Source: Williamsia phyllosphaerae (lineage in GTDB: Bacteria > Actinomycetota > Actinomycetes > Mycobacteriales > Mycobacteriaceae). From it: a DNA stretch of 64,000 bases. The stretch covers positions 1,612,001-1,676,000 of the forward strand of contig NZ_BMCS01000001.1 of assembly GCF_014635305.1 (NCBI RefSeq), read 5' to 3'. The position numbers were made by a program, and so were the translations under genes. Shown here one piece after another: positions 5,094 to 36,806 of the stretch. Each line of letters opens with the position of its first letter. Position 1 is the first letter of the stretch. Under the pieces are notes generated by a model that saw only the letters and a program-made list of their open reading frames with translations, did not search any database and was not told the origin of the DNA.

Positions 5094-5706
5094 CGTCGAT
5101 CCGTTCTGTCGGAGTAGGAAAGTGGTCCGCTCGCGGTCGTCGTCCGCGTCGCGACACGAGGGCGCACATGGTGAGCCCGAGAAGGATCAGATAAACCGGG
5201 AACGCGACGGTGGTGGCGTCGTAGGCGGACAGGCTCAGCAGCGCGAACGAGCCGTTCGCGGCGGCGAGAAGGTAGACCAGAGGGCGTTCGGTGTCCGGTC
5301 GTCGCCATGCCTTGACAATGGTGGGGACACCGCCGATCGCGTCGGCGGCCACCGCGGTGAGGACGGCCAGGACCGGGTCGTCCAGAGCGAGCCACGCCAG
5401 CAGTGCGACGGCGGCGACCGCACCGCACGACAGGTCGAAACCACTGATCCGCCAGTAACTCGAGCGATTGGCGAACGACGCGCAAAGGATCAGGAACGGT
5501 CCGAGACCGACCGCGAGAGTGGTGACCGCGGGCAGTCCGACACCGTCACCGATCTGGGCTCCGAACGCGATGCCGGGCGCCGCCGCCCAGAGGAACCACG
5601 TGACCCGGTTGGGGCGCACGACGCCTCGCAGGGTGAGCACGGCGTACCAGGAGCTGCCCATCATCGACAGGGCCGCGCCGAGCAGCGCGAATCCGGGGTC
5701 GATCAC
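4984..5706 (-). CDS. PQ-loop/SWEET-like small integral membrane protein, unknown function
   Basis: About 240 residues, of which the first about 190 form six or seven hydrophobic segments. Two stretches resemble PQ-loop repeats: VRPNRVTWFLWA near the N-terminus and VPTIVKAWRRPDTE in the second half. I start it at the GTG at 5706, which overlaps the stop of the upstream TetR gene (GTGA) and implies co-expression. The last about 45 residues are hydrophilic, rich in Pro and Arg, and lie over the acetyltransferase gene. In an alternative frame the gene would end in an ATGA overlap with elaA at 5090-5093, so a 3' frameshift or read-through tail is possible. Substrate unknown. Confidence 0.65.
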   Translation of the reverse strand: MIDPGFALLGAALSMMGSSWYAVLTLRGVVRPNRVTWFLWAAAPGIAFGAQIGDGVGLPAVTTLAVGLGPFLILCASFANRSSYWRISGFDLSCGAVAAVALLAWLALDDPVLAVLTAVAADAIGGVPTIVKAWRRPDTERPLVYLLAAANGSFALLSLSAYDATTVAFPVYLILLGLTMCALVSRRGRRPRADHFPTPTERIDDELRPPCAARPGRPAHPLPHHGATGRGVRPRAADHR

Positions 5707-6299
5707 GGCCGTACCCCTCCGACCCGATCGACCACGTCTGCGACCGTGCGGCGCGCCAACTGTTCCTGCACCGCGGCCGGATACGTAGGGCCGTCGAGAA
5801 CCGCCAGGACCGCGATGCCCTCCATCGTGGCGACGATCTCCCGTGCCCACTCGGTGGCCTCGGCGTCGGTGACATCAGGACCCAGCTCGGCGACGAGTCC
5901 GGTGACGCGCGCCAACCACTGCCGCGTGTTGTGCACATGCAGCTCACGTAGTTCGGCGTCGGCGATCGACGCCGCCGCGAAGCCGGTGAAGATGCGGGCC
6001 TCCACCATGCGCACATCGTCGAGCGGCAGCACGGTGCGGGCGACGGCGAGGAGGCGATCGGCCGCGGGTTCATCGGCATCGACGCCGTCCGCACGTCTCG
6101 CCGTGCGATCGAACAGGGTCTGGCGCGCGTGGACCAGCATCGCCGACCTCGACCCGAAGCGGTGCATGATCAGGCCGGTGGTGCAGTCCGCGCGTGCTGC
6201 GACCGCGCGGACGGTGGTCGCCTCGATCCCCAGCTCGGCGACCGTGTCCCACACCGCCCGGGAGACGCGGTGGCGCGCGTCATCGTTGTCGGCGTTCAC
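5703..6299 (-). CDS. TetR/AcrR family transcriptional regulator
   Basis: A 198-residue protein with an N-terminal helix-turn-helix (VRAVAARADCTTGLIMHRFGSRSAML, residues about 29-54, read here as the recognition region) and a ligand-binding C-terminal domain of BetI-like appearance. The start is GTG at 6299. Two copies of TAACA-N2-TGTTA lie 30-63 bp upstream and are the likely operator. It overlaps and is co-transcribed with the downstream membrane-protein gene, which may be its target. It is divergent from the LysR gene. Confidence 0.88.
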   Translation of the reverse strand: MNADNDDARHRVSRAVWDTVAELGIEATTVRAVAARADCTTGLIMHRFGSRSAMLVHARQTLFDRTARRADGVDADEPAADRLLAVARTVLPLDDVRMVEARIFTGFAAASIADAELRELHVHNTRQWLARVTGLVAELGPDVTDAEATEWAREIVATMEGIAVLAVLDGPTYPAAVQEQLARRTVADVVDRVGGVRP

Positions 6300-6328
6300 G
6301 TTGCTCAGACCTTCCCTCCGGTCGCTCG

Positions 6329-6362
6329 TAACACTTGTTATGAAATGTCGTAACAGATGTTA
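6329..6362. promoter_or_regulatory. Twin palindromic operator, TAACA-N2-TGTTA
   Basis: TAACACTTGTTA (6329-6340) and TAACAGATGTTA (6351-6362) are two perfect 5+5 palindromes with centres 22 bp apart, about two helical turns. They lie in the divergent region between the TetR and LysR genes, 30 bp from the TetR start. This is the arrangement expected for a TetR autoregulatory operator bound by two dimers. Confidence 0.7.
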
Positions 6363-6409
6363 CCGGCACACTCGACGGACTGGAGGGGTTGGTCGCGCAC
6401 GCCGTAGTA

Positions 6410-6422
6410 GCGTGATTCACGC
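6410..6422. promoter_or_regulatory. Palindrome upstream of the LysR gene
   Basis: GCGTGA-T-TCACGC is a perfect 6+6 inverted repeat 41 bp upstream of the LysR start codon. It may be the regulator's own binding site. I did not find an obvious second copy upstream of the aldarate operons. Confidence 0.35.
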
Positions 6423-6463
6423 AACGGCCATCCGATCGGGTGAGCCATACCGGGAGTGAATCG

Positions 6464-27047: not shown

Positions 27048-29678
27048 ATGATCGAGAGAGTCGATCCGTCCGGATCGTGCGGCGCGGCGAGGGAGATCGA
27101 CATCGGCATCAGTCTCAGGCCACGCGGTGGTCGGCGGTTCTGGGTGCTCGTCGCCGCGGCCGTCGTCGTCGTGCTGGCCGCGGTGATCGCCGTGGTCGCC
27201 ACGACCGGCGGTGACGAGGACCCGGTCACCGAACGATCGATGACCGTCCCGGGCGTACCCGAGGCCGGACAGCCGGTCGGCCTCGACGCATCGGTGTTTC
27301 TGCCTCGCACCCGACCCGCACCGGCCGTCATGCTCGCGCACGGTTTCGGCGGGTCCAAGGCCGACCTGACCGCGCAGGCGCGGACACTCGCCGGGCGCGG
27401 CTACGTCGTGATCACCTACTCGGCGCGCGGATTCGGGGCCAGCGGCGGACTCATCCACCTCGACAACCCCGACTACGAGGTCGCCGACGCCCGCCGCCTG
27501 ATCGATCTGCTGGCCACGATGCCGGAGGTCGAGCGCGACGGACCGGGCGACCCCCGCGTCGGCGTCGCGGGCGCGTCCTACGGCGGTGCACTGGCGCTGC
27601 TGGCCGCCGGATACGACCGTCGTGTCGACGCCGTGGCCGCCGACATCACCTGGAACGACCTGTCGCAGGCGCTGTTCCCCGTCGGTGTCGACTCCCAGGG
27701 TGCCGCCGGGGTGTTCAAACAGCAGTGGGCGGGTCAACTGTTCTCGCAGGCCACGCGCATGGCGACGTCGGACGGGTGCGGGAAGTTCGCGCCCGACGTC
27801 TGCGCCGCCTACCAGGCATCCGCCGCCGCAGGAGCGCCCGACGCGAGCCTGCAGACCCTGATGCGTGCGTCGAGCCCGGCGTCGATCCTGAGTCGTATCA
27901 CCGCTCCGACGCTGCTCATCCAGGGACAGCAGGACTCGCTGTTCCCGATCGATCAGGCCGTTCGGAACGCCGAGGGCATCCGCTCGGCCGGAACCCCGGT
28001 CCGGATGCAGTGGCGCACCGGCGGCCACGATCAGCCGGGCGGGAACATCACCCCGTCCGTCGAGTCGTGGTTCTCCACGGTGTTGCAGGACAAGAGGACT
28101 CCCGATTCCGGGTTCGCCGCCGACGTCCCCGACGGTGCGCTGTCGACCGACACGGGCCGCTCGTCGGCGCGGCAGCTGACGGCGCCGTCGCTGGCCGAGG
28201 CGCAACGCCCGCGCGACGTCGCCGTGGCGGGCCCCGAGCAGACCGTGAACGCACCAGCCGGTGGCACCCCGTCAGCCATCACCGCCGTTCCCGGCATCGG
28301 AAGTCTGCTCAGTGCGGCCGCCGCGGCCACCGGCGCCGGCGCGCTGTCGGCGATCCCGGGTCAGGTCGCGGGCTTCGTGTCGGGACCGCTCGACGCCGAC
28401 ACCCTGATCGGCGGATCTTCCACAGTTCGCCTCCGGATCACCCCGCGAACCACCACGGACGCAACGCTGTTCGTATCCCTGGTCGACGTGGCACCCGACG
28501 GGCAGCGGACCCAGCCGTCCGGTCTGGTCACCCCCGTTCGACTCACCGGTCTGACGCCCGGACAACCCACCTCGGTGACCGTCGCACTGCCCACCGTGGT
28601 CCGGTCGGTGGTGTCCGGACACCGCCTGGCCGTTGCGGTCTCGACCACCGACCTCGGCTACCGGCTCCCGACCGACGCGCGCACGTACTCGGTGGCGTTG
28701 GAGTCGCCGACGCTGGCGCTGACCACCCTCACCGGGCGCGCCGAGTCGACGCCGTTCCCGTGGGGCTGGCCTGTCGTCGGTGTCATCGCGCTGCTGGCCT
28801 TGATCGCGGGCGTCAGCGTCGCGACGTGGCGCCGTCGGGCCCCGGGCGAGGCGGCGTCGGACGGAGAGGGTGTCTCGCCGATCGTGGTCGAGTCCCTGAG
28901 CAAGGAGTACGGCGACTCCTACCGTGCAGTCGACGACGTGTCGTTCCGCGTCGAGGCCGGGCAGGTCGTCGGCCTGTTGGGTCCCAACGGCGCGGGCAAG
29001 ACCACGGTTTTGCGGATGATGGTCGGCCTCATCTCGCCGACGTCCGGGCACATCCGGCTGTTCGGCGAGGAGGTCCGCGCGGGGTCGTCGGTGTTGGCGC
29101 GCGTCGGTGCGTTTATCGAGGGACCGGGCCTGCTGCCGCATCTGTCGGGTCGTCAGAACCTTGATCTGTACTGGGCGGCCACCGGCCGACCGGCCGACGA
29201 AGCCGACTTCGAGACCGCGCTGGAGATCGCCGGGCTCGGGGCGTCGGTGGATCGCAAGGTCCGCAAGTACAGCCAGGGCATGCGGCAGCGGCTGGCCATC
29301 GCCCAGGCGATGCTCGGGCTGCCGGAGTTGCTGATCCTCGACGAACCCACCAACGGTCTCGACCCGCCGCAGATCGCTGAGATGCGTGAGGTGATGCGGC
29401 GCTACGCGGCCACCGGTCGCACGGTCGTCGTCTCCAGCCACCTGCTGTCGGAGGTGGAGCAGACGTGCAGTCACGTCGTGGTGATGCACAAGGGCCGGCT
29501 GATCACGGCCGGATCGGTGGACGAACTCGCCGGCGCGGCCACGTCGACGCTCGCCGTCGACGACGTCGCCGCCGCGCAGCGGGTGCTCGAGGCCGCGGGT
29601 GTGCGTGCGGAGGTCGTCGAGTCCCGACGGCACCTCGAAGAAGCGTTCCTCGACCTGATCGGAGATGAGTCCCGATGA
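27048..29678 (+). CDS. Fusion protein: membrane-anchored alpha/beta hydrolase plus ABC exporter ATPase
   Basis: An 876-residue two-part protein. Residues about 31-53 form a membrane segment. Residues about 70-555 hold an X-Pro dipeptidyl-peptidase/CocE-like hydrolase, with AHGFGGSKAD, nucleophile Ser177 in GASYGGAL, Asp in QGQQDSLFP, His in TGGHDQPGG, then a beta-rich C-terminal domain. A second membrane segment lies at about 573-592. A complete ABC ATPase follows, with Walker A GPNGAGKT (645-652), signature YSQGMRQR and Walker B LLILDEPTNGLD. The predicted topology puts the hydrolase outside and the ATPase inside. The gene overlaps its permease partner by 4 bp (ATGA). No stop or frameshift separates the parts. 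Confidence 0.88.
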   Translation: MIERVDPSGSCGAAREIDIGISLRPRGGRRFWVLVAAAVVVVLAAVIAVVATTGGDEDPVTERSMTVPGVPEAGQPVGLDASVFLPRTRPAPAVMLAHGFGGSKADLTAQARTLAGRGYVVITYSARGFGASGGLIHLDNPDYEVADARRLIDLLATMPEVERDGPGDPRVGVAGASYGGALALLAAGYDRRVDAVAADITWNDLSQALFPVGVDSQGAAGVFKQQWAGQLFSQATRMATSDGCGKFAPDVCAAYQASAAAGAPDASLQTLMRASSPASILSRITAPTLLIQGQQDSLFPIDQAVRNAEGIRSAGTPVRMQWRTGGHDQPGGNITPSVESWFSTVLQDKRTPDSGFAADVPDGALSTDTGRSSARQLTAPSLAEAQRPRDVAVAGPEQTVNAPAGGTPSAITAVPGIGSLLSAAAAATGAGALSAIPGQVAGFVSGPLDADTLIGGSSTVRLRITPRTTTDATLFVSLVDVAPDGQRTQPSGLVTPVRLTGLTPGQPTSVTVALPTVVRSVVSGHRLAVAVSTTDLGYRLPTDARTYSVALESPTLALTTLTGRAESTPFPWGWPVVGVIALLALIAGVSVATWRRRAPGEAASDGEGVSPIVVESLSKEYGDSYRAVDDVSFRVEAGQVVGLLGPNGAGKTTVLRMMVGLISPTSGHIRLFGEEVRAGSSVLARVGAFIEGPGLLPHLSGRQNLDLYWAATGRPADEADFETALEIAGLGASVDRKVRKYSQGMRQRLAIAQAMLGLPELLILDEPTNGLDPPQIAEMREVMRRYAATGRTVVVSSHLLSEVEQTCSHVVVMHKGRLITAGSVDELAGAATSTLAVDDVAAAQRVLEAAGVRAEVVESRRHLEEAFLDLIGDESR

Positions 29679-30634
29679 CCGAGAACACCGGTGGTACGGG
29701 CGAGGTCGAAACCGGCGGGCGTGCGGCGGCCACCCGGAAGGGCGTACACGACCGGCTCGACGGCATCGGTCCGGTCCAGCCGTCGACCTTCCGCCCGGGA
29801 CGGACCCTGAGCCTGCGGGTCGAGGCGGTGCGACAGCTGCGCCGCCGACGCACGCAGGTCGCGGCGCTCCTCTTGCTGGTGCTGCCGCCCGTCATCGCCA
29901 TCGCGTTCTCGTTGAGCTCGGACGATCCATCGACCGCGGGTTCGGACGGAGGCGGTCGGCAGAATTCGGCGCTGTACGGACTGGCGACGGCGGGCGGCGC
30001 GAACTTCGCGCTCTTCACCGAGTTCGCGGCGGGGTCGTTCCTGCTCACCGTCCTCATCGCGTTGTTCTGCGGCGACACCGTCGCGAGCGACGCGGGCTGG
30101 GCGTCGTTGCGCTACCTGCTGGTGATCCCGGTGCGACGCTCACATCTGTTGCGGCAGAAGCTGTTCATCGGGTTGGCGTCGAGCGCGATCGCGCTGATCC
30201 TGTTGCCGGTGTGGGCCTATGTGGTGGGTGGGCTGTTCTTCGGGTGGGGGCCGGCGCAGTCGCCGCTGGGTGGCGAGTTCACCAACGGTGAGACGTTGCA
30301 GCGTCTGGCGATCGTCGTCGGGTACACCTTGATCCAGTCTCTGGTGATCGCTGGTTTCGCGTTCCTGCTGAGTGTGGTGACCGACGCCCCGCTCGGCGCG
30401 GTCGGTGGCGCGACGATGCTGGTCATCCTGTCGAACATCCTGGATGCGATCTCGGCGCTCGACCCGTACCGCCAGTATCTGCCGACGCACTATCAGTTCG
30501 CGTGGCTGGATGCGTTGGGGCCGAACGTGGTCTGGGAGGACATGGCGCGCGGAGCCGGTATCTCGCTGATCTACTCGTCGGTGTTGTTCGGCTTCGCGTG
30601 GTGGTGGTTCGGCCGCAAGGATGTCGTGAGCTGA
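29675..30634 (+). CDS. ABC-2 type exporter permease
   Basis: A 319-residue membrane protein with a cytoplasmic N-terminal tail and about six hydrophobic segments. It has the ABC-2 pattern LRVEAVRQLRRRRTQ before the first segment and GWASLRYLLVIPVRR in the loop after the second. It would dimerise as the translocation pore for the ATPase domain of the upstream fusion. Its stop is followed after 1 bp by a 22-bp tandem repeat array. Confidence 0.87.
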   Translation: MTENTGGTGEVETGGRAAATRKGVHDRLDGIGPVQPSTFRPGRTLSLRVEAVRQLRRRRTQVAALLLLVLPPVIAIAFSLSSDDPSTAGSDGGGRQNSALYGLATAGGANFALFTEFAAGSFLLTVLIALFCGDTVASDAGWASLRYLLVIPVRRSHLLRQKLFIGLASSAIALILLPVWAYVVGGLFFGWGPAQSPLGGEFTNGETLQRLAIVVGYTLIQSLVIAGFAFLLSVVTDAPLGAVGGATMLVILSNILDAISALDPYRQYLPTHYQFAWLDALGPNVVWEDMARGAGISLIYSSVLFGFAWWWFGRKDVVS

Positions 30635-30635
30635 T

Positions 30636-30745
30636 CCGCCGACCGTGCCGTAACCACCCGCCGACCGGGCCCTAACCACCCGCCGACCGGGCCCTAACCA
30701 CCCGTCGAGCGGGCCTTAACCACCCGCCGAGCGTGCGCTTGCGAG
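30636..30745 (+). repeat. 22-bp tandem repeat array A (four full units plus one degenerate)
   Basis: Units start at 30636, 30658, 30680, 30702 and 30724. Units 2 and 3 are identical: CCGCCGACCGGGCC followed by CTAACCAC. Units 1 and 4 differ at a few positions; unit 5 loses the TAACCAC end. Each full unit carries one TAA, and because 22 is not a multiple of 3 the TAAs fall in all three frames. There are no spacers. It begins right after the permease stop. Confidence 0.9.
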
Positions 30746-30796
30746 AAATCAGCGGAAACAATGAACCGTCGGCGCTGATCGCGCGTCGAACGCAGC

Positions 30797-31678
30797 ATGA
30801 CCATCGACGATCAGCCCTTCCGACTGAGCGACATCGGACTACCCGCATCGATGACACCGCGCGAGGTGCCGCATCATTTTCGCCGTGTGCACCGCGCGGT
30901 CTACGTCAGTCCCGGGTTGACACTCGGGCCGGTCGAGACCATCCGGGCGGCGTGGTTGAGGGCGGGTCCGGAAGCGGTGGTGGGTGGAGTCAGCGCAGCG
31001 GTCCTGCACGGGGCGACGTTCTTCGACCACGGCGACGAGGTCGAACTGGTCCGCGCCCCGACCGGCCAAGGTCGACGACGCAGTCGCGTCCGCATCGTAC
31101 GAACCGACCTCGATCCGCGAGACATCGTCGCCGTAGACGGCATGCCGGTGACCTCGGTGATCCGAACCGCATACGACCTGGGTCGCCGTGGACCCGCCTG
31201 GCTGGGTCTCGCGCACCTGGACGATCTGACTCGTTCCACCAACCTCGAGCTCGGCGTGCTGTGGCGATACGTCGTCGACCACCCGGCCGTACGAGGGATA
31301 CGCCAGATCCGTGGGCTGATCCCGTGGGTCGACCCGAACGCGGAGTCATCAGGCGAGAGTTACATGCGGCATCTCGTTCTCGCACAGGGTCTACCGCGAC
31401 CCGAAACCCAGGTGAAGGTCTTCGACGAGGCGGGGCGGACCGTCGCGAAGTTCGATCACGCGTACCGGGAGGAGAAGCTTGCTTTCGAGTTCGACGGGTT
31501 CGATTACCACTACAGCGACGAGCAACGGGCGTCTGACGCCCGACGGGATCGTGAAACGGCCCGACTCGGCTGGCACACCGAACGCCGGAACAGTGTCGAA
31601 CTCTCCAACGACCCGTTCGAGTTTCTCGGCCGGCTCGAACTTCTCCTGGAGCAACGGGCTCGCCGAAGGCGTCGTTGA
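30797..31678 (+). CDS. AbiEi-like/DUF559 protein with nuclease-like C-terminus
   Basis: A 293-residue protein. The first about 120 residues resemble the AbiEi-type (type IV antitoxin) domain common in actinobacteria: PFRLSDIGL, VHRAVYVSPG, VSAAVLHGA, VTSVIRTAYDLGRR. The C-terminal about 110 residues resemble DUF559/Vsr-like restriction-endonuclease folds, with Glu187 in GESYMRHL, Asp220 in AKFDHAY and Glu231-x-Asp233 in AFEFDGFDYH, a plausible PD-(D/E)xK-like metal site. No AbiEii toxin gene is adjacent. Arrays of 22-bp repeats bracket it on both sides in inverted orientation. Function is unknown; a nuclease role is inference. Confidence 0.78.
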   Translation: MTIDDQPFRLSDIGLPASMTPREVPHHFRRVHRAVYVSPGLTLGPVETIRAAWLRAGPEAVVGGVSAAVLHGATFFDHGDEVELVRAPTGQGRRRSRVRIVRTDLDPRDIVAVDGMPVTSVIRTAYDLGRRGPAWLGLAHLDDLTRSTNLELGVLWRYVVDHPAVRGIRQIRGLIPWVDPNAESSGESYMRHLVLAQGLPRPETQVKVFDEAGRTVAKFDHAYREEKLAFEFDGFDYHYSDEQRASDARRDRETARLGWHTERRNSVELSNDPFEFLGRLELLLEQRARRRRR

Positions 31679-31692
31679 AGCACAGTCGGCAG

Positions 31693-31802
31693 GTAGTCAG
31701 GGCCCGCTCGGCGGGTGATTACGGCCCGCTCGGCGGGTGATTACGGCACGTTCGGCGGGTGGTTTGGGCACGTTCGGCGGGTGTTTACGGCCCGCTCGGC
31801 GG
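31693..31802 (-). repeat. 22-bp tandem repeat array B (five units), inverted relative to array A
   Basis: Units start at 31693, 31715, 31737, 31759 and 31781. On the plus strand the best unit reads GTGATTACGGCC then CGCTCGGCGG; its complement matches the array A unit at most positions. The fifth unit overlaps the 3' end of the DinB gene: its last 15 bp encode PPSGP and it supplies the TAA stop. Units follow each other with no spacer. Confidence 0.9.
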
Positions 31803-32327
31803 GAAACGTTGCCCGGTCACGTCGAACAGGTGGTGCACCGGATCGTGGATGAAGTATTGGCCCAGCGTCTCGATGGTGAACACGCTGCCGTCGCCACGCC
31901 GTCCGCTCCGCCCGAGCGCATCGTCGGGTACCGACCGGAAGAGTTCGGCCAGCACCGTTGCGTCGGAATGCATCTCGTGCAGGACGGTGGCCGCGTCCTG
32001 CTCGTTGTAGCGATCGGTGACCGCGGTGGCGTCCTGATCCCAGTTCTCGAACACCGGATTGTCCTCGGTCACCATCAGATCGACGCGTGCGGCGAACCGG
32101 CGGAAGACGTCGCGGACGTGCGCGGCGTACTCCAGGGGCGACCAGGTCGAATCGTCCGGCCGCAGGTGCGGATCGCCGAAGTCGAGTGCATCGGCCCATT
32201 GGTCGGCGTTGGCGAGAACGAGGTCGGGTATGTCGCGGAAGTCGACGCGGGATGCATCCAACCCGCATGCCTCACAGGGCCTCTCCAGCACCCAGGTCCA
32301 ACTCTTCGTCTCCGGTTCGATGGGCAT
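31785..32327 (-). CDS. DinB/mycothiol-dependent enzyme-like protein
   Basis: About 180 residues of the DinB four-helix fold. His residues of the metal site are seen in EYAAHVRDVF, near the middle (VLHEMHSD) and at the C-terminus (HDPVHHLF). It starts MPIEPETKSWTWVLERPC, the usual opening of this actinobacterial subgroup, so I use the ATG at 32327 rather than GTG at 32336. Relatives include mycothiol-dependent maleylpyruvate isomerase and bacillithiol or mycothiol transferases; the substrate is unknown. Its last residues and stop codon lie inside repeat array B. Confidence 0.83.
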   Translation of the reverse strand: MPIEPETKSWTWVLERPCEACGLDASRVDFRDIPDLVLANADQWADALDFGDPHLRPDDSTWSPLEYAAHVRDVFRRFAARVDLMVTEDNPVFENWDQDATAVTDRYNEQDAATVLHEMHSDATVLAELFRSVPDDALGRSGRRGDGSVFTIETLGQYFIHDPVHHLFDVTGQRFPPSGP

Positions 32328-32429
32328 GGACGTCACAGTAGCCAGCCCAGAATCATGTCGACGGATCAGAATTGAACACCGCGCACAGTTGGCGGTGAAC
32401 TTACGAGAATTGGCCGGATCGGCGCGTTG

Positions 32430-35736: not shown

Positions 35737-36465
35737 ATGGCAGAACGGCATGACGACACCGACGCGGAGACGCAGCCGGAGCCGGTCCGCGACCGATTGG
35801 TGACCGTCACGATCGCCCTGCTGGCCGACGTGGGCCCCTCGGAGATCAAGGTCCGACGGATCGCGGAGGAGGCCGGCGTCTCCACCATCGCCGTGTACCA
35901 CCATTTCGGCGGTGTCCGTGAGCTGCTCCAGGTGGTGGTCGGCCGTGGCTACCGCACCCTGCGGACCGCCTTCGAGAGGGCGGCCGCGGCGGGCCCCGAC
36001 CCGGGCGCCCAGTTGTTCGCGATAGCCCTGTCGTGTCGGCAGGTGGCACAGGACAACGCCCACCTCTACGACATGATGTTCGGACTCTCGACACGCGGGA
36101 CGTACCGATACGTCGCCGAGGCACCGGACGGAGGCCCGACCCAGCAGTTCCTCGAGTCGTACGCCGTCTTCGCCGCCGCCTGCCACCGACTGGTCGAGTC
36201 GGGACGCATCACGATCACCGACGGACATCAGGTCGCCGCCGAACTGTGGAGTGCCGTACACGGATTCGTCACGCTCGAGATGGCCGGGCATTTCGCGCGC
36301 TTCGACAACCCGGTCGGTCAGGTGCTGGCGCCGATGTGCGTCAATCACTTCGTCGGATTGGGTGATGAGCGGTCGCGCGCCGAGAGGTCTGGGCTCGACG
36401 CAGTCGCATGGTGGAACTCCGAGGGCCCCGGCAGCGAGAACGCGGCGGCGAAGATCTCGATCTGA
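35737..36465 (+). CDS. TetR/AcrR family transcriptional regulator
   Basis: A 242-residue TetR protein. Its HTH reads VRRIAEEAGVSTIAVYHHFGG, here split as VRRIAEEAGVS (helix 2-turn) and TIAVYHHFGG (recognition helix), with a long C-terminal domain (TetR_C_33-like, with AHLYDMMFG). Of two in-frame ATGs I use the second, at 35737, which has GAGAG 10 bp upstream. It is divergent from the DHA2 exporter at 34035-35636. A 21-bp tandem array begins 8 bp after its stop. Confidence 0.87.
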   Translation: MAERHDDTDAETQPEPVRDRLVTVTIALLADVGPSEIKVRRIAEEAGVSTIAVYHHFGGVRELLQVVVGRGYRTLRTAFERAAAAGPDPGAQLFAIALSCRQVAQDNAHLYDMMFGLSTRGTYRYVAEAPDGGPTQQFLESYAVFAAACHRLVESGRITITDGHQVAAELWSAVHGFVTLEMAGHFARFDNPVGQVLAPMCVNHFVGLGDERSRAERSGLDAVAWWNSEGPGSENAAAKISI

Positions 36466-36473
36466 CCGCCGAC

Positions 36474-36557
36474 TGCCCAGTGAACGTCCGCAAATGCCCA
36501 CTCAACGTCCGTAGCTGCCCACTCGACGTCCGTATCCGCCCAGTCGACGCGGGTCCA
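36474..36557 (+). repeat. 21-bp tandem repeat array C (four units)
   Basis: Units start at 36474, 36495, 36516 and 36537. The core is TGCCCACTCGACGTCCGTA plus two variable bases; unit 4 is the most diverged. There are no spacers. Like array A, it lies immediately downstream of a stop codon, but its unit differs and its 21-bp period keeps reading frame, with no stop codon in the read-through frame. Confidence 0.8.
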
Positions 36558-36569
36558 ATTCCGACGGAG

Positions 36570-36806
36570 TCAGGTGCCGGTCGACCCACCGTTGATGTGA
36601 TCCCGCACATCCGACGCGGTGGCGCCTCCCGCGACGACGTACACACGATCGTCGTCGCGGGAGGCGTTGTTCCACGAATCGTCGTCCAGGTTCTGCCAGT
36701 CCACGAGTTGACCGTCGGCGTCGAAGGCCAACTGCGCCCGGTTCGGGTGGCGGATGGCGACGCGGGCGATGCGGTGGGCGAGCGCATCGATGTCCGCGGT
36801 CTCCAT
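36570..36806 (-). CDS. Small hypothetical protein (78 aa)
   Basis: A short acidic, soluble protein: LAHRIARVAIRHPNRAQLAFDADGQLVDW, here split in two helices/strands, then NLDDDSWNNASRDDDRVYVVAG and DHINGGSTGT at the end (each shown in part). I recognise no family. The ATG at 36806 is chosen because GAGGAG lies 6 bp upstream; an ATG at 36812 has no spacing to that site. The ribosome-binding site and codon pattern support a real gene. It converges on repeat array C and is divergent from the small gene at 36924. Confidence 0.6.
   Translation of the reverse strand: METADIDALAHRIARVAIRHPNRAQLAFDADGQLVDWQNLDDDSWNNASRDDDRVYVVAGGATASDVRDHINGGSTGT

Follow-up and report, generated by a model that had tools for sequence, protein, structure and literature searches.

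A putative nuclease and its facing tandem arrays: a candidate cognate repeat system in Williamsia and related soil bacteria

Within a chromosomal stretch of 64,000 nucleotides (the window) from the 4.81-Mb genome of a Williamsia, a gene for a nuclease-like protein stands between two tandem arrays that face each other, and comparison of homologous loci and genomes establishes, at the level of sequence, both the association of this gene with its arrays and their cognate pairing. We consider it probable that the gene and the two facing arrays (a module) form the autonomous element of a nuclease-cognate repeat system that operates in the manner of REPIN/RAYT. We are evenly divided on whether they represent a new class of selfish repeats, in which an EDxHD/Vsr-type nuclease with an AbiEi-like reader spreads its own arrays, with lineage-specific recognition and separate enzyme-array pairs in each genome. 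In both readings the protein would act on the arrays, and their cutting and spreading would be its work. The system looks undescribed in Williamsia and related soil bacteria: searches of the open-access literature for the repeat, for MTES_1575 or DUF559 proteins with repeats, and for Gordonia or Williamsia repeats returned no earlier description (this literature included few subscription papers and no bioRxiv preprints). In what follows, G000 is the genome of the window, other G numbers denote compared genomes and L numbers denote retrieved loci, for which gene calls came from a simple codon model written for this analysis. The features of the locus, in positions of the window, are as follows.

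29675..30634, plus strand: ABC-2 permease gene, upstream context outside the module (ORF list; Pfam ABC2_membrane_2)
30633..30742, plus strand: array A, five 22-bp units in sense orientation (TRF, pattern scan, unit listing)
30797..31678, plus strand: AbiEi-like/EDxHD-Vsr-like nuclease gene, 293 aa, a member of the array-flanked clade (ORF, Pfam/PADLOC, AF2, Foldseek, tree)
30875..31192, plus strand: AbiEi-like region, residues 27-132, which presumably binds DNA (PADLOC, Foldseek)
31343..31678, plus strand: predicted nuclease domain at the C-terminus, residues 183-293, containing E187, D220, E231, D233 and H238 (residue table of 106 homologues, Foldseek)
31675..31806, minus strand: array B, five 22-bp units at 31697-31806 and a degenerate unit at 31675-31696, facing array A (TRF, pattern scan, unit listing)
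31785..32336, minus strand: DinB-superfamily gene, convergent (ORF list; Pfam DinB_2 3.7e-9)

The first-pass annotation of this DNA had described 22-bp arrays facing each other around a single gene, an arrangement that our analysis confirms. TRF recovered array A at 30636-30730 (4.3 copies, 91% matches) and array B at 31701-31803 (4.7 copies, 87% matches), the consensus of array B is 86% identical to that of array A as reverse complement compared to 55% in direct orientation, and the single plus-strand ORF of 293 aa lies between them. A scan of the window with the unit pattern gave 10 matches—five on the plus strand (30633-30741, at 22-bp spacing) and five on the minus strand (31697-31805)—where dinucleotide shuffles of the window led us to expect 0.53 and never gave more than 4. 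Array B gains a degenerate sixth unit; array A, noted at first as four units plus a degenerate one, matches five times. Array A sets in at the stop codon that ends the ABC permease gene (30634), the degenerate unit of array B overlaps the nuclease stop codon, and the reading frame of the DinB-superfamily protein runs to its C-terminal end (PPSGP-stop) within the outermost array-B unit. The closest named relative found, Williamsia maris DSM 44693, carries a protein of 91% identity in the same neighbourhood. Elsewhere in the window, an 876-aa ORF at 27048-29678, with its permease gene directly after it, carries both an S15/PepX-like hydrolase and the ATPase domain of an ABC transporter (Pfam Peptidase_S15, PepX_C and ABC_tran). 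A third array, of 21-bp units of the CGAGTGGGC type in minus orientation, sits at 36472-36549; the ORF to its left, on the plus strand, ends at 36465, and the one to its right, on the minus strand, starts at 36570. Units of this type also follow rpoC in G000 (L217) and are carried by none of the three modules found in that genome; the array in the window is possibly the relic of a lost module.

The evidence that ties arrays to gene comes from the homologues of the nuclease-like protein, whose flanks were scanned on both sides with TRF and 106 of which were placed in a maximum-likelihood tree. One clade of 50 proteins (SH-aLRT 100, stem 0.57) has 21-22 bp arrays at all 50 members. TRF detects them on both flanks in 42 of the 50, the two sides reach an inverted identity of 0.7 or more in 38 of these 42, and the median inverted identity between upstream and downstream array in the clade is 0.86. 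The core points inward in every resolved clade array (44/44 upstream, 44/44 downstream). Outside the clade, 48 of 56 homologues have no arrays, and the remaining eight have one-sided or non-matching repeats, never a matching facing pair. The objection that homologues of the gene might generally lack flanking arrays therefore fails: sister clades are without them, whereas the clade keeps them at several unrelated loci and with different units. Neighbouring genes differ among homologues; in G001, G005 and G006, for instance, the homologues (66-69% identity) occupy another locus, downstream of rpoC, between facing arrays of a different unit. At one conserved site, next to a gene some 702 codons long, the orthologues in G003, G004, G005 and G023 carry different units, and within each of these loci the left and right arrays agree; the two arrays of one locus change in concert. 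Each genome holds one to three modules, diverged from one another and never present as many near-identical copies, among the best six candidates scored per genome.

The protein itself combines two recognizable halves. The AbiEi-like N-terminus proposed at first pass is borne out by PADLOC (AbiEi, 3e-16), with Pfam AbiEi_1 reaching 20.1 bits, under its cutoff of 22.2. For the C-terminal half the nuclease-like assignment survives and the DUF559 label proves weak, since Pfam MTES_1575 (25.9 bits, under cutoff) fits better than DUF559 (13.3 bits). The MTES_1575 domain has been described as a novel Vsr-family REase (PMC3710099). An AlphaFold2 model of the window protein, built from 13 homologues, reached moderate confidence (pLDDT 78). 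Compared by Foldseek, the whole model best matches Rv2827c (1zel, E 5.9e-4), and the predicted fold of its C-terminal part matches the catalytic domain of the homing endonuclease I-Bth0305I (3r3p, TMt 0.70) and then Vsr (1cw0, TMt 0.44); a PDB search with the protein sequence gave no match. Of the site residues originally named, E187, D220 and D233 never vary within the clade (50/50), and nor does H238, which is unconserved outside the clade in the residue table of 106 homologues; position 231 varies, with E in 39 members and D in 11. The protein is held under purifying selection, as comparison with the G007 orthologue gives a dN/dS of 0.085 and two further pairs give 0.07-0.11. Pfam and PADLOC returned AbiEi- and Vsr-type matches only, with no HuH/Y1 (TnpA_REP) transposase, and neither Pfam nor Foldseek found a transposase-type catalytic domain. 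We rejected a phage or plasmid origin of the module, because searches of plasmids, phages and IMG/VR viral contigs found no close relative; a query of plasmids with the arrays likewise found nothing.

The arrays are not confined to the module. In G000, the 22-bp unit recurs at 17 further retrieved loci, for a total of 30 arrays and 106 units including the window. G000 also has two further modules of the same clade, with GTTGGGC-type arrays (L056, G000:C2:84146-84946, and L057, G000:C1:86776-87636). Opposite arrays that form a pair in G000 always face each other (11 plus then minus, 0 minus then plus), a rule that G353 and G243, from another genus, also obey. The gene-less arrays occur as facing doublets or solo, mostly in intergenic positions, and the dispersal of gene-less facing doublets means that the system exceeds one gene and two arrays. 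Per-position information across the G000 units defines a conserved core of about 15 bp at positions 3-17, CCCGCCGANCGKGCC, followed by a more variable linker. The units show no conserved palindrome (the pairing positions 11 and 14 vary) and neither a T run nor a conserved hairpin; we rejected the unit as a hairpin terminator, given that a 5-bp CCCGC-GCGGG stem is present in some units only and that the rpoC arrays follow an existing terminator. A CRISPR or other guide-RNA array is ruled out by the contiguous units (21-22 bp, with linkers similar within an array and no unique spacers) and by an Rfam search with the units that gave no match. At L038 (C1:206587), an AbiEi-like gene of another branch (30% identity; 5504-6433) lies about 200 bp from an array and has no paired arrays, probably by coincidence. 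Single ordinary genes are bracketed by facing arrays at L043, L049, L202, L209, L211, L213 and L264-L269, and these include bestrophin-like, glyoxalase, TetR, SDR, LamB/YcsF, PNPOx, luciferase-like and flavin reductase genes. A cassette system with special cargo was rejected on the grounds that these genes are ordinary and mixed.

Dispersed arrays also follow the gene from genome to genome. We scanned 48 genomes, 25 of them gene-bearing and 23 controls, for three consecutive cores spaced by 21 bp; the resulting counts refer to overlapping triplets and do not equal numbers of loci, and a few of them come from the module. CGANNGKGC arrays gave 4-128 matches in 25/25 gene-bearing genomes and 0-3 in the 23 controls, the latter close to the counts of a reversed control pattern. 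GTTGGGC arrays gave 18-96 matches in the eight Williamsia and 0-1 in the other 40 genomes, and GCCGACAG arrays gave 11-76 matches in exactly the 8 genomes whose module has the GCCGACAG unit and 0 in the remaining 40; eight of these 40 have a module with a different unit. Among the matches listed, the dispersed arrays of G243 (GCCGACAGAACCC) are like its own module, and array and module likewise match in G371 (GCCGACAGCACC) and in G353 and G130 (GCCGACAGCGCYC). G002 is an exception, with GTTGGGC arrays present, yet with other units in its two modules. Within genus g9, 34 genomes without a detected gene gave 0-4 matches in 29 cases and 9-40 in five; as only six candidates were scored per genome in the gene search, these five array-rich genomes may represent missed genes or relics. 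Two other counts in this genus, those of G280 and G781, lie far above the rest, at about 300-355 overlapping CGA-type matches each, possibly through recent array expansions. Taken with the clade, the dispersal in gene-bearing genomes and the agreement of array type with module type uphold, from sequence comparison, the proposed tie between arrays and gene.

The main rival is a polar roadblock at gene ends. Here the arrays would be rows of binding sites that stop RNA polymerase or a replication fork, the AbiEi-like protein would be their binder, and facing doublets would protect convergent gene pairs. Array placement speaks for such a role: of the 30 G000 arrays, 20 begin no more than 30 bp from a stop codon on their own strand, for the most part at a distance of up to 3 bp or so placed that the stop codon falls in unit one. 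Arrays in G353 and G243 are placed in the same way. We nevertheless judge a roadblock unlikely. The L055 doublet of G000 stands between divergent genes, which argues that facing polarity is a property of the doublet; a roadblock requires no invariant nuclease site; and array sites are patchy among sister species. The L190 doublet of G007 is missing at the orthologous G000 site, the L047 doublet of G000 is missing in G004 and G007, and beside one and the same stop codon the L040 array has several units in G000, about two in G007 and none in G004. At L049, the glyoxalase-family gene found between facing arrays in G000 is missing in G007. The site 3′ of rpoC holds a full module in G001, G005 and G006, a gene-less GTTGGGC doublet in G003, short mixed arrays in G000, G004 and G007, and none in G002, and its arrays lie beyond a strong intrinsic terminator.

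The same polymorphic sites bear on a second alternative, that of a simple transposon whose gene and arrays move together, whether cut-and-paste or copy-and-paste; its ends would have multiple sites, like those of Tn7/Mu, and gene-less doublets would be MITE-like derivatives. The inward orientation of the terminal arrays with their 21-22 bp sites, the occurrence of related modules at different loci (G000/G007 compared to G001/G005/G006) and gene-less doublets of equal polarity would all suit this explanation, which we nonetheless hold to be distinctly improbable. Array length, unit sequence and spacing differ between orthologous sites, the one to three modules per genome (among the best six candidates scored) are diverged and never numerous near-identical copies, and a transposase-type catalytic domain is absent by Pfam and Foldseek. 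The first-pass annotation had suggested comparing related strains for precise gain or loss; doublets and arrays do come and go between sister species, but their boundaries are blurred, and neither fixed ends nor a target-site duplication was recognized at the few polymorphic sites read. Many array sites are common to G000 and G007, so any movement would be slow, and the presence or absence of arrays at orthologous sites is compatible with homing-type copying into an empty allele. Coincidence, the gathering of GC-rich tandem repeats between convergent genes where a nuclease gene happens to lie, was considered first because the unit is indeed widespread at gene ends, and ordinary genes (bestrophin, glyoxalase, TetR, flavin reductase, luciferase-like) also lie between facing arrays, but it is scarcely credible, as the unit is linked to the family when gene-bearing genomes are set against controls, as 50/50 versus 8/56 on the protein tree, genome presence/absence and array-type matching exceed chance placement, and as the clade test and array-type matching contradict it.

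We therefore return to the nuclease-cognate repeat system, which would build on two features that the compared genomes display: the AbiEi-EDxHD/Vsr clade is always found with inward tandem arrays, each protein lineage having its own 21-22 bp unit, and matching gene-less doublets and solo arrays are dispersed in the same genomes, mostly intergenic and often abutting stop codons. The AbiEi-like part would bind the core, with one protomer per roughly two helical turns, and the nuclease domain would nick or cut within or beside the arrays. Repair of the break, templated by another array, could then copy units, such that left and right arrays co-evolve and arrays expand and shrink; occasionally, such repair could seed a new doublet or copy the gene between two arrays. 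As each genome keeps tens of uncut arrays, any cutting would have to be weak, regulated or structure-dependent. Besides the clade, cognate pairing and dispersal, the reading draws on the 11:0 facing of doublets in G000, the gain or loss of doublets and arrays between sister species, the invariant catalytic residues, the low dN/dS and the resemblance of the predicted fold to a homing endonuclease. Against it count the mismatch in G002, the five array-rich g9 genomes without a detected gene, the conservation of many sites between G000 and G007, the lack of a recognizable target-site duplication at the few sites read and the lack of a close relative in plasmids, phages or viral contigs.

Several known systems share traits with the module. 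The ends of Tn7 and Mu consist of several transposase sites of about 22 bp, set in inverted groups at both ends; the module resembles them in its inverted sets of repeated sites and differs in having no DDE transposase or fixed termini and in arrays that are mostly gene-less and dispersed. With the EDxHD homing endonuclease I-Bth0305I and with Vsr, it shares the predicted catalytic fold and the conserved E, D and His, whereas here the domain lies outside any intron or intein, has an AbiEi-like region fused in front and comes with cognate tandem arrays. The AbiEi-like N-terminal half recalls the AbiE type IV toxin-antitoxin systems (AbiEi antitoxin; Rv2827c), yet no AbiEii nucleotidyltransferase toxin gene is adjacent—the neighbours encode an ABC permease and a DinB-superfamily protein—and a predicted nuclease domain and paired arrays are added. 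Among repeats, CGTC-type REPs are likewise short, extragenic and dispersed, mostly as inverted dimers, but they are palindromic with 8-9 bp stems, have been reported from five phyla, Actinobacteria not among them, and have no associated enzyme gene (PMC3733652).

The closest parallel is REPIN/RAYT, in which a single-copy nuclease or transposase-like gene is flanked by its own repeats, these are dispersed extragenically, mostly as inverted doublets, and several enzyme-repeat pairs per genome co-evolve and are vertically inherited (PMC3116915, PMC8266576). The module shares these traits: an enzyme gene flanked by its own repeat and the dispersal of that repeat as inverted doublets are both found here. 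The enzyme, however, is of the AbiEi plus EDxHD/Vsr type instead of a HuH Y1 transposase, the repeats are tandem 21-22 bp arrays with no conserved palindrome or GTAG tag, and the hosts are Williamsia and other genera of its family. Lacking a HuH transposase as well as a palindromic repeat with a tag, the module falls outside the REPIN/RAYT family; by analogy, the mechanism that we propose would be the one proposed for REPIN/RAYT, carried out with another enzyme and another repeat. RAYT/REPIN is the known bacterial case in which a dedicated enzyme co-evolves with a family of dispersed repeats, the two forming cognate pairs. If our reading is correct, such a lifestyle arose more than once, the second time with an enzyme unrelated to the first and a repeat of different construction, and a function would be gained for one branch of the AbiEi/DUF559-like genes, which are very abundant in Actinobacteria and unexplained. 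With their different units, the dozens of enzyme-array pairs that exist in nature offer a ready set for deriving rules of DNA recognition and for tests of repeat spread in bacterial chromosomes.
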